From Desulfovibrio mangrovi (GTDB lineage: Bacteria; Desulfobacterota; Desulfovibrionia; Desulfovibrionales; Desulfovibrionaceae), in contig NZ_CP104208.1 in NCBI RefSeq assembly GCF_026230175.1, positions 2,852,001 through 2,916,000 on the forward strand: a stretch of 64,000 nucleotides of DNA. The letters are read 5' to 3'. Below the pieces are notes generated by a model. The model worked only from the letters and a program-made list of their open reading frames with translations, had not been told where the DNA came from and did not search any database. Below are positions 24,611 to 28,243 of the stretch, one piece after another. The number at the start of each line of letters is the position of its first letter. Positions within the stretch are counted from its first letter, which is position 1. Both the position numbers and the translations under genes were made by a program.

Positions 24611-25006
24611 ATGCCTTTTGTCTGCATCGAAATTCGCAAGCGTTATACGCAGGAAGAGGAAATCGGCATTATCGATGCCGTGCACGCAGCCTTGCAGGAG
24701 GCGTTCCTGATCAAGCCCGATGACAAGCATCTCCGGCTGATCGTGCATGAGCCGCACCGCTTCACCTGCCCCGAAGACAAGAAAAAGCCTGAATGCTGCA
24801 CCATGGTGACCATAGATGCCTTTGCGGGCCGCTCGCTGGACGCCAAGCGGAAGCTGTACAAGGCCATTGTCCGCAATCTGGAGCCCTTCGGCATTCCGGC
24901 GGACCATGTGCTGACCGTGCTCCGCGAGCATCCCAAGGAAAACTGGGGCGTACGCGGCGGGCAGGCAGCCTGCGACATCCAGCTGGGATTCAAGATCGAC
25001 GTATAA
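24611..25006 (+). CDS. Tautomerase-superfamily protein
   Basis: 131 aa. The sequence starts MPF, so after Met removal it exposes the N-terminal catalytic proline of the 4-oxalocrotonate tautomerase/MIF superfamily. The length (about 130 aa) matches the family of larger, 5-carboxymethyl-2-hydroxymuconate isomerase-like and uncharacterised members. PEDKKKPECCTMVTID and PKENWGVRGGQAAC are distinctive. The substrate is unknown. AAGGAG precedes the ATG and a TTGACA/CATATT promoter lies upstream. The helicase-nuclease gene follows on the same strand after 165 bases. Confidence 0.8.
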   Translation: MPFVCIEIRKRYTQEEEIGIIDAVHAALQEAFLIKPDDKHLRLIVHEPHRFTCPEDKKKPECCTMVTIDAFAGRSLDAKRKLYKAIVRNLEPFGIPADHVLTVLREHPKENWGVRGGQAACDIQLGFKIDV

Positions 25007-25171: not shown

Positions 25172-28100
25172 ATGCATGACGAAGCGGAAATCATAGCGGA
25201 GTACGTAGCCGCACTGAAGGCCTCAGACCGGCTGGGCGAGCAGGTGATCTATCATCGTGTCCTGCCCGAGGCGGAGGCGCAGTTCGCCCCGAACAGGCGA
25301 CCATGGCCCACGGCCATCCGCGACCTGCTGGCCATGCAGGGCATCCGCGAACTCTATGCGCATCAGGCGCTGGCAACTGACTACATCCGTTCCGGCAGGC
25401 ACGTGGTGGTGGCAACCCCCACGGCCAGCGGCAAGACCTTTGTCTACAACCTGCCGGTCATCGAGCGTTTCCTGCAGGACCGCGACGCCCGCGCACTCTA
25501 CCTCTTTCCGCTCAAGGCACTGGCGCAGGATCAGCTCAAGACATTCCGCCAGCTCACGGCCCACTGGCCCAAGGAAGCACGGCCCGAGGCCGCCATCTAC
25601 GACGGCGACACCACTCCGCACTTCCGCAAGAAGATCCGCACCAATCCGCCCACGGTACTGATGACCAATCCGGAGATGCTGCATCTTTCCATTCTGCCGC
25701 ACCATGAACAGTGGGTGCAGTTTCTGGCCTCGCTCCAGTTCATCGTGGTGGACGAGGTGCACACCTACCGTGGGGTGCTCGGCTCACACATGGCCCAGCT
25801 TTTCCGGCGGCTGCTGCGTATCTGCAAGCAATACGGCATCACGCCCACCTTCATTTTCTGCTCCGCCACCGTGGGCAACCCCGGCGAGCTGTGCCAGCAG
25901 CTGACCGGCCTGCCGGAATCGGACATTCAGGTCATCACGCAGAGCGGCGCACCGCAGGGCAAACGACATTTCGTGTTTCTGGACCCGTATGAAAGCCCCT
26001 CCACCGCCGCCATCCAGCTCCTGAAATCCGCGCTGTCCCGCAACCTGCGCACCATCGTGTACACGCAGTCGCGCAAGATGACGGAACTCATCAGCCTGTG
26101 GGCGGGCCAGAAATCCGGCCCGTACAAGGAGCGCATCTCCGCATACCGGGCGGGCTTCCTCCCCGAGGAACGGCGCGAGATCGAGGCGAAGATGTCCAGC
26201 GGCGAACTGCTTGCGGTCATCTCCACCAGCGCGCTGGAACTGGGCATAGACATCGGCGCACTGGATCTGTGCATTCTGGTGGGCTACCCCGGCACGGTCA
26301 TGGCGACCATGCAGCGCGGCGGTCGCGTGGGCCGCTCCACGCAGGAGAGCGCCGTGGTGCTGGTGGCGGGCGAGGATGCGCTGGATCAATATTTCATGCG
26401 CCACCCGCAGGACTTTTTCGAGCGCCCCGCCGAACACGCGGTGCTGAACCCGCACAACCCCGTGATTCTGAAGCGGCATCTGGAATGCGCGGCGGCGGAG
26501 CTGAGCCTGCGTCCGGCCGAACAGTGGCTGCAGGCGCAGGACGTGCAGAGCGCCATCCGCGAGCTGGAACTGGAAGGCCTGCTGCTGCGCGATGCGGACG
26601 ACACCGCCATCTTTGCCGCACGCAAACGGCCCCAGCGGCACGTGGACCTGCGTGGTGCGGGCAACAGCTTCCACATCCAGACGACGGACGGCACGGTCAT
26701 CGGCAGCGTGGACGGCATCAAGGCCCTGCGCGAAACACACCCCGGCGCGGTCTATCTGCACAAGGGCACCTCATGGACAGTGACCTCTCTGGACCTTGAG
26801 ACCCGCACGGCCCGCGTGGCCGAGGAGAAAGTGGACTACTACACCCGCGTGCGCGGCAACAAGGACACCGAGATTCTGGAAGTGCTGGACCAAAAGGTGG
26901 TGTGGGGCACCCGCATCTGCCTCGGCAAGCTGCGCGTTACCGAACGTATCAGCGGCTACGAGCGGCGCAGCGTACGCGGCGGCGGCAATCTGCTCGGCAT
27001 CATCCCGCTGGACCTGCCGCCCCAGATATTCGAGACCGAGGGCCTGTGGTTCGAGATTCCCATGGATGTGCAGCGCGCCATGGAGGATGCGTTCATGCAC
27101 TTCATGGGCTCCATCCATGCCATTGAACACGCGGCCATCGGCATTCTGCCCCTGCTGGTCATGACGGACCGCAACGACCTTGGCGGCATTTCCACGCCCA
27201 TGCACGCGCAGGTGGGCAAGCCTGCGGTATTCATTTACGACGGCATGCCCGGCGGTGCAGGACTGACCAGGCTGGCGTTCGAGCGCGCCGTGGACATGTT
27301 TGAGCGCACCCTTGCGGTTATCCGCGACTGCGGTTGCGAACTGGGGTGCCCTTCTTGCGTGCATTCGCCCAAGTGCGGGTCGGGCAACCGCCCCATAGAC
27401 AAGGCCGGAGCCCTTGACCTGCTGCTGCGCCTCGCCTCGCGTGATGCTGCTTCTGACGAACACTTACGCGAACAGTTCGTATTACAACCTGTCGATCACC
27501 CCACCACGACAACCAGACCTGCGCAGTTTGAGCCCACCGCGCACTCTGCCTCTGCCAGACCAGAGACCCCAGACACGGCAACGCTTCCTAACGAGTCAGC
27601 ACTCTGCCGTGGGGTGGATGGGGCCCAGCGAAGCGAGCCGGTACATCCTCCCCTCCCCGCCGGAGGCATGCCTTTGGCTGCTCAATCCCCCACGTCAAAA
27701 TTTCTCCCCCCTGCCCGCTATGCGGTGCTGGACGTGGAGACCCAGCTTTCCGCGCAGGAGGTGGGCGGCTGGAACCGTGCCGAGCGCATGCGCGTGAGCA
27801 TTGCGGTCCTGTACGATTCCGCAACAGACGCCTTCACCGCCTACACGGAAGACCGCATGCCGGAAATGCTGAAGCTGCTTGAGGAGTTCGACCTTGTGGT
27901 GGGCTTCAACATCCTGCGCTTCGACTACAAGGTGCTTTCTGCCTATACCACGCAGAACCTTGCCACCCTGCCCACGCTGGACATGCTGGATGTGATCCGC
28001 AAACGGCTGAGCTACCGCGTCTCGCTGGATAATCTGGGTTCGGCCACGTTCGACGCGCCCAAGTCGGCGGACGGCCTGCAGGCGCTGAAGTGGTGGAAGG

Positions 28101-28243
28101 AAGGCAAGGTGGACGAGATTGCCCGCTACTGCGAACAGGACGTGCGCATAACCCGCGATCTGTACCTGCACGGACGCGAGCACGGGTATGTGCTGTTCAC
28201 CAACAAGGCCAAGCAGAAGGTCCGCATTGTGGTGGACTGGTAG
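25172..28243 (+). CDS. Fused DUF1998 DEAD-box helicase and DEDD exonuclease (MrfA-MrfB-like)
   Basis: 1023 aa. Residues 1-760 are a superfamily 2 DNA helicase: TPTASGKT (residues 82-89), DEVH (194-197), SAT (231-233), GYPGTVMATMQRGGRVGRS and a DUF1998 domain ending in a four-cysteine cluster CGCELGCPSCVHSPKCG near 720. This matches B. subtilis MrfA/YprA. After a Pro/Thr/Ser-rich linker (about 766-848) comes a DnaQ-like nuclease resembling MrfB/YprB: LDVET, VVGFNILRFDYKVL and YCEQDVRITRDLY supply the acidic residues. In B. subtilis these are two proteins that repair mitomycin C damage; here one chain carries both. No clear ribosome site precedes the ATG. Confidence 0.88.
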   Translation: MHDEAEIIAEYVAALKASDRLGEQVIYHRVLPEAEAQFAPNRRPWPTAIRDLLAMQGIRELYAHQALATDYIRSGRHVVVATPTASGKTFVYNLPVIERFLQDRDARALYLFPLKALAQDQLKTFRQLTAHWPKEARPEAAIYDGDTTPHFRKKIRTNPPTVLMTNPEMLHLSILPHHEQWVQFLASLQFIVVDEVHTYRGVLGSHMAQLFRRLLRICKQYGITPTFIFCSATVGNPGELCQQLTGLPESDIQVITQSGAPQGKRHFVFLDPYESPSTAAIQLLKSALSRNLRTIVYTQSRKMTELISLWAGQKSGPYKERISAYRAGFLPEERREIEAKMSSGELLAVISTSALELGIDIGALDLCILVGYPGTVMATMQRGGRVGRSTQESAVVLVAGEDALDQYFMRHPQDFFERPAEHAVLNPHNPVILKRHLECAAAELSLRPAEQWLQAQDVQSAIRELELEGLLLRDADDTAIFAARKRPQRHVDLRGAGNSFHIQTTDGTVIGSVDGIKALRETHPGAVYLHKGTSWTVTSLDLETRTARVAEEKVDYYTRVRGNKDTEILEVLDQKVVWGTRICLGKLRVTERISGYERRSVRGGGNLLGIIPLDLPPQIFETEGLWFEIPMDVQRAMEDAFMHFMGSIHAIEHAAIGILPLLVMTDRNDLGGISTPMHAQVGKPAVFIYDGMPGGAGLTRLAFERAVDMFERTLAVIRDCGCELGCPSCVHSPKCGSGNRPIDKAGALDLLLRLASRDAASDEHLREQFVLQPVDHPTTTTRPAQFEPTAHSASARPETPDTATLPNESALCRGVDGAQRSEPVHPPLPAGGMPLAAQSPTSKFLPPARYAVLDVETQLSAQEVGGWNRAERMRVSIAVLYDSATDAFTAYTEDRMPEMLKLLEEFDLVVGFNILRFDYKVLSAYTTQNLATLPTLDMLDVIRKRLSYRVSLDNLGSATFDAPKSADGLQALKWWKEGKVDEIARYCEQDVRITRDLYLHGREHGYVLFTNKAKQKVRIVVDW

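Follow-up and report, generated by a model that had tools for sequence, protein, structure and literature searches.

The YprA-family helicase MrfA of Bacillus subtilis is a 3′–5′ helicase (PMC12458937, PMC12345164), and its partner MrfB, the product of a separate gene, is a 3′–5′ exonuclease of the DEDDh class with C-terminal tetratricopeptide repeats (TPR) (PMC11194089). The physical MrfA–MrfB unit of Bacillus is a model proposed from AlphaFold-Multimer (PMC11194089). Besides, YprA helicases of the repair branch that are fused to “MrfB/YprB homologs” have been mentioned in one clause (Bell et al. 2025; PMC12458937), without a distinction between DEDDy and DEDDh nucleases in the accessible text. 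They probably share the general architecture of the protein considered here, which is thus already known in outline. In the present study, we analysed such a fused gene in a 64,000-nucleotide stretch of Desulfovibrio mangrovi DNA (contig NZ_CP104208.1, positions 2,852,001 to 2,916,000; “the window”). We consider it likely that its product is a single-chain DNA-repair enzyme, in which a superfamily 2 (SF2) helicase of the YprA/MrfA family is tethered to a DEDDy 3′–5′ exonuclease that is not of the MrfB lineage. The accessible parts of the literature surveyed do not draw the distinction made here, namely that the nuclease joined to the helicase is of the DEDDy class, lies outside the MrfB profile and accompanies a helicase clade of its own; nor do they describe any YprA helicase fused to a DEDDy nuclease. 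The gene is organized as follows (residue numbers are those of the fused protein; E, expectation value; pLDDT, predicted local distance difference test score):

25172–28243, plus strand: fused gene (helicase, linker and exonuclease), 1023 amino acids (aa), an ATG-initiated frame without internal stop; mean pLDDT of the model 86.1
25358–25876, plus strand: RecA1/DEAD domain, residues 63–235 (Pfam DEAD, E 4.3e-29)
26015–26338, plus strand: RecA2/Helicase_C domain, residues 282–389 (Pfam)
26447–26659, plus strand: winged-helix domain of the HRQ1 type (WHD_HRQ1), residues 426–496 (Pfam, E 4.7e-9)
27122–27361, plus strand: MZB/DUF1998 zinc-binding domain, residues 651–730 (Pfam, E 3.1e-22)
27503–27700, plus strand: disordered linker of variable length, residues 778–843 (pLDDT below 50)
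27716–28240, plus strand: predicted DEDDy 3′–5′ exonuclease domain, residues 849–1023 (Pfam RNase_H_2, motifs and fold match)

A first annotation made without database searches (hereafter the sequence-only reading) had placed a helicase and an exonuclease in one chain of 1023 aa, and the uninterrupted plus-strand frame from 25172 to 28243 bears this out. Its assignment of the N-terminal part (approximately residues 6–755) to the MrfA-type DUF1998 helicases was likewise correct: Pfam domains, sequence and structure all place this half in the YprA/MrfA (DUF1998/MZB) family. The SF2 core motifs are all present: Walker A (PTASGKT, residues 83–89), DEVH (194–197), SAT (231–233) and motif VI (QRGGRVGR, 381–388). 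The best solved relative of the fused protein is B. subtilis MrfA/YprA (6znp; 510 bits, residues 13–732). In a full-length structure model built from 48 input sequences (mean pLDDT 86.1, predicted template modelling score 0.84), residues 6–755 align with 6znp at a Z score of 38.8 and a root-mean-square deviation (rmsd) of 6.1 over 723 residues, with 38% identity. Helicase core, winged helix and MZB zinc site of MrfA (6znp, 6znq, 6zns) thus recur in the fused protein, which differs in its additional C-terminal linker and exonuclease and in that its helicase sits in another clade. The four-cysteine cluster noted in the sequence-only reading is present, but the conserved set numbers five rather than four: Cys720, 722, 726, 729 and 735 are invariant in 48 aligned full-length sequences, the last of them just outside the MZB/DUF1998 domain. 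TIGR03817 did not separate the helicase groups, as the four helicases scanned with it score 620–747 bits, under its cut-off of 874.

The fusion is conserved. In a scan of GTDB contigs of named organisms, made with the nuclease alignment, we considered the best 80 of 579 confirmed relatives; helicase and nuclease share one frame in 78 of these 80 loci, the two exceptions being broken by a run of N (L064) or starting at a contig end (L078). Two separate frames arising from a sequencing error, a possibility that the sequence-only reading had raised, are excluded by this count. The best whole-genome loci, the window included, carry both parts in one frame in 30 of 30 cases; these loci were ranked by their similarity to the entire fused protein, which favours fused ones. 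The named and whole-genome sets partly overlap (L015 and L073 are the identical frame). The closest relative among the 80 named loci is a Halodesulfovibrio locus (L034) with 87% identity. The spacing between the CPSC string of the helicase and the DxET string of the nuclease ranges from 66 to 163 residues in 29 of the 30 whole-genome loci; L028, in which the CPSC string was not found, was dropped. In the model of the window's own protein, the low-confidence stretch 778–843 makes the earlier claim of a disordered linker of about 80 residues roughly right.

With regard to distribution, the titles of the 80 named loci are those of sulfate reducers or generic “Deltaproteobacteria/Proteobacteria bacterium” records, and it is because of the latter that a tally by phylum (57 Thermodesulfobacteriota, 19 Myxococcota, 2 Pseudomonadota, 2 without phylum) is unreliable. 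The fused form is frequent in sulfate-reducing bacteria rather than a peculiarity of a single organism. Of 395 genomes of the phylum searched at the protein level, 196 yielded a relative (E up to 1e-20), unfused helicases included. When the same 148 genomes were searched alike for the fused-type domain, MZB helicases and RNase_H_2, the fused-type domain was found in 43 (45 pass E 1e-5, from which G118, a 36-residue fragment, and G125, a weak match, were excluded), with the best match in a frame of 711–1210 aa in each. In 12 of the 148, a strong RNase_H_2 gene lies no more than ∼2 kb from an MZB helicase, and none of the 148 has both the fused-type domain and such a gene pair. Twenty-seven of the fused-type genomes carry a further, separate gene with a strong RNase_H_2 match (E under 1e-20), which the other 16 of the 43 lack. 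A plasmid search returned 98 matching records, none of which reaches 80% query cover; the 15 matches listed touch helicase residues only.

The C-terminal domain had been read as a DEDD exonuclease, and the Pfam model RNase_H_2 indeed matches residues 894–998 (E 7.8e-6; 26.4 bits, cut-off 22). The acidic residues D854, E856, D918 and D990 do not vary across the alignment of 48 full-length sequences, and the catalytic motifs (DxE, FD and D; in the window D854, E856, D918, Y986 and D990) are complete in 130/130 distinct fused-type domains, including the tyrosine that defines the DEDDy class (Tyr986 in the window). These 130 domains derive from 151 frames, of which 148 also encode the helicase and the rest are L064, L078 and the stand-alone L203. 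Given the motifs in 130/130 domains, the exonuclease is probably active, as a member of the DEDDy class. All of the 17 members scanned match RNase_H_2, DNA_pol_A_exo1 and DNA_pol_B_exo2 (E up to 0.1), the window's own row scoring below the cut-offs of the latter two.

Modelled alone, the nuclease domain reached a pLDDT of 94.0, and a Foldseek search with this model returned family-B and T7 DNA polymerases on top. In a VIA-align comparison with the exonuclease domain of family-B polymerases (e.g. 5mdn), it gave a Z score of 15.0 and an rmsd of 3.6 over 168 aligned residues at 17% identity. In each of the two fold searches, the best 50 matches listed are polymerases; the MrfB structure 8UN9 is outside those 50, possibly further down. 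At the sequence level, the window's domain alone gave one chance match only against the PDB, and the fused-domain profiles A1 and A3 found T7 polymerase at just E 0.03–0.3, beside unrelated proteins. The proofreading domain of family-B DNA polymerases is the best fold match of the fused nuclease, which differs from it in having no polymerase and in being attached to a helicase.

The sequence-only reading had gone further and called the nuclease MrfB-type, and here it has to be corrected. Comparison was made with 15 MrfB-like rows from the same phylum, of which 12 adjoin a helicase of what we call the mrfB-linked group, one adjoins another helicase (L200), one lies ∼8 kb from its helicase (L194) and one is on another contig of its genome (L155); real mrfAB pairs, in which an MrfB-like gene stands next to an unfused helicase, thus exist in other genomes of the phylum. 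All 15 carry the DEDDh histidine, against a tyrosine in 130/130 fused-type domains. No TPR model of Pfam matched the fused protein up to E 0.1, and its chain ends at the nuclease. Neither the window's nuclease alone nor profiles A1 and A3 matched 8UN9 in the PDB up to E 10. On the other hand, a profile of 12 MrfB-like rows (A4) found 8UN9 at E 3.2e-49, plus TPR structures. The fused nuclease does resemble MrfB in its superfamily (DEDD), in its YprA helicase partner and in its expected 3′–5′ polarity; the differences lie in the DEDDh class, C-terminal TPR and separate gene of MrfB (PMC11194089).

A third group, a stand-alone RNase_H_2 family, helped to gauge these distances. One member is the second RNase_H_2 exonuclease of the window's genome, of 276 aa (G000:C1:1473392-1473841; locus L002, 1384-2211, minus strand; E 1.6e-39), which on its own matches 8UN9 at E 3.3e-4 and is closer to MrfB than the fused domain. 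The family is DEDDy in 22/22 rows, and a profile of 15 of its members (A5) matches 8UN9 at E 1.5e-9. In profile–profile comparisons (hhalign), MrfB-like and stand-alone profiles (A4 and A5) align with a probability of 99% (E 1.8e-18), the fused-domain profile (A3, 54 sequences) and the stand-alone one with 94% (E 2e-7), and the fused-domain and MrfB-like ones with 17% (E 0.0015, 113 columns). As far as tested by such comparisons, the fused nuclease falls outside the MrfB lineage. As side observations, the 276-aa exonuclease gene begins 11 bases after an endonuclease III-like gene (identified by eye), with which it possibly forms a repair pair, and genome G102 holds an additional, stand-alone relative of the fused exonuclease of 188 aa (L203; G102:C12:58000-77999).

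The helicases, too, fall apart. We computed a careful tree of 37 rows, which are the 45 rows of a quick tree minus eight (the long-branch L200 among those removed), with a single phylum sampled and one row from Bacillus added. On one side, MrfA is joined by 11 helicases of the mrfB-linked group (support 100/100); the other side holds 15 fused and 10 unfused helicases (100/100). Ten of those 11 adjoin an MrfB-like gene; for L210, none was found in the stretch examined. In line with this, B. subtilis MrfA is 47–51% identical to 14 rows of the mrfB-linked group (an MrfB-like gene adjoins 12 of them, lies ∼8 kb from L194 and was not found for L210) and 35–41% to 16 fused rows. The fused helicases hence lie in a clade separate from MrfA and its mrfB-linked relatives. 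Within their side, one fused row (L025) groups with the unfused helicases (95/90), and the fusion may therefore be older than the unfused clade and have been lost there, or may have arisen on two occasions; the quick tree allows a single group of fused rows, with a support of only 31. A loss of the nuclease domain in the unfused relatives is possible. Such related YprA helicases, with no fused-type exonuclease in the stretches fetched, were seen at L195-L199, L201, L202 and L204-L208; among these loci, absence of the fused-type exonuclease throughout the genome was seen for G054, G119 and G147 only.

Domains, intact catalytic residues, conserved fusion, DEDDy class and separate helicase clade were all computed directly. 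Several observations nevertheless weigh against a repair enzyme with a nuclease of non-MrfB descent. For the nuclease domain of the window itself, Pfam gives a modest match (E 7.8e-6). Ten related helicase rows of the same clade do without the exonuclease domain, and the helicase can thus dispense with the nuclease. The profile link between fused and MrfB exonucleases is weak (hhalign E 0.0015, 113 columns), which makes them distant members of one superfamily, so that an old MrfB might also have diverged fast after fusion. Finally, L200 (G023:C17:1-4241) encodes an unfused helicase with 42% identity to that of the window and, directly upstream, a DEDDh MrfB-like gene truncated by the contig end; the order is reversed relative to the other pairs fetched. 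In the quick tree, L200 branches on a long branch at the base of the MrfA side. With L200, an exclusive link between MrfB and the MrfA clade looks less likely: the association with MrfB may predate that clade, and the fused domain may be a replaced or diverged MrfB.

Among the alternatives, a true MrfA–MrfB fusion fares best, yet we deem it unlikely. An ancestral mrfAB operon would have been fused, with the MrfB part diverging, losing its TPR and exchanging its histidine for tyrosine. This would fit with the common superfamily (RNase_H_2 matched by 17/17 members, and the hhalign E of 0.0015 to MrfB), with the position of the nuclease after the helicase in both systems and with the DEDDh MrfB-like neighbour of the unfused L200, but it has to reckon with a stand-alone family far nearer to MrfB (profile probability of 99% vs 17%), with DEDDy residues in all 130 domains, with polymerase proofreading domains as the best folds listed and with a helicase in another clade. 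We lean slightly towards the view that a 3′–5′ exonuclease joined YprA helicases on two or more occasions: in one case as the DEDDh/TPR protein MrfB in an operon, in another, in sulfate reducers, as a fused, proofreading-type DEDDy domain of another lineage. If so, the fused enzyme would be a self-contained bacterial helicase–exonuclease taking the place of MrfAB, and would indicate independently that this repair family has unwinding of the strand plus digestion of its 3′ end as its central reaction. Being naturally a single chain and having a different nuclease, the protein would argue independently for helicase and exonuclease acting on one strand, and would allow their coupling to be measured directly in one polypeptide. 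Either way, it would be unwise to label every nuclease joined to a YprA helicase as “MrfB”.

How a single-chain enzyme with a tethered DEDDy nuclease might work can be outlined from its relatives, which are the source for the polarity of the helicase, the activity and polarity of the exonuclease, their coupling, the preference for repair over phage defence and the link to mitomycin or adducts. By analogy to MrfA, the motor would use a gap or nick next to the damage to load on single-stranded DNA, and would pull the strand in the 3′–5′ direction. Since MrfA is a 3′–5′ helicase and MrfB a 3′–5′ exonuclease, we infer that the 3′ end trailing the motor could reach the tethered nuclease: it would be passed on via the flexible linker, and the exonuclease would degrade the damaged strand, resulting overall in an action like that of MrfA plus MrfB. 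Manthei et al. speculated on such an arrangement for the two-protein MrfA–MrfB complex (PMC11194089). A role in a mitomycin pathway is a reasonable guess. SaDinG, a helicase–exonuclease fusion of Staphylococcus aureus, is connected by its authors with mitomycin and formaldehyde (PMC12345164); repair of adducts or crosslinks is thereby a plausible function of the fused enzyme as well. The two are alike in combining a helicase and a 3′–5′ exonuclease in one chain, with mitomycin tolerance as the associated trait; SaDinG differs in its helicase family, its 5′–3′ polarity and its N-terminal DEDDh nuclease. The eukaryotic WRN protein likewise unites a 3′–5′ exonuclease with a 3′–5′ SF2 helicase, there of the RecQ type, its nuclease being N-terminal as opposed to the C-terminal one described here.

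That the fused protein might be a YprA-type component of phage defence appears very doubtful to us. Helicases of the defence branch carry inserted domains (PMC12458937), and the fused protein lacks the helicase insertions of ARMADA, Druantia, DISARM and Dpd: its helicase model aligns almost end to end with MrfA (723 of ∼750 residues), leaving no room for a large insert. While 59 PADLOC models match it, with BrxHI best at 172 bits, the best-matching stretches fall within residues 48–767, the shared helicase and MZB parts (25 matches listed). At L203, in what may be a defence-like island, the 188-aa exonuclease relative and a 1623-aa MZB helicase are ∼11 kb apart; the named neighbours of the fused gene itself are a tautomerase, an FAD (flavin adenine dinucleotide) oxidase and a malate synthase-like gene. 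Two genes joined by frameshift, misassembly or chance, for which no evidence was found, can be practically dismissed, with one frame in 78 of the best 80 named loci (from 579) and in 30 of 30 whole-genome loci, and with the catalytic residues kept on either side of a variable linker in 48 sequences.

The L203 stretch also holds, besides its 1623-aa MZB helicase, a NERD-helicase, a WYL regulator, an ARPP-1 protein and an Hsp70-like protein, and may be a defence-type locus.

As for the surroundings of the fused gene, three of the window's own neighbours were sought in other loci. The gene upstream is the following:

24611–25006, plus strand: Tautomerase_2 gene, 131 aa (Pfam, E 1.5e-17), 165 bases upstream of the fused gene

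The sequence-only reading had placed a tautomerase gene before the fused gene on the same strand, which is correct for the window, but it is no conserved neighbour: among the named fused loci, 59 offer more than 700 bases of upstream sequence, and in none of these, L034 included, does a match lie beside the fused gene (phmmer, E up to 1e-8, frames of at least 120 aa, a search that would miss shorter or more distant tautomerases). As far as tested, we therefore reject the tautomerase as a functional partner; its gene is probably an accidental neighbour. The downstream FAD oxidase recurs in 5 of the 64 loci with more than 1500 bases downstream, i.e. synteny is weak. A scan for promoters and terminators gave one promoter-like site (1.2 expected) and six terminator-like sites (3.1 expected). 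A malate synthase-like gene, named by eye, also neighbours the fused gene.

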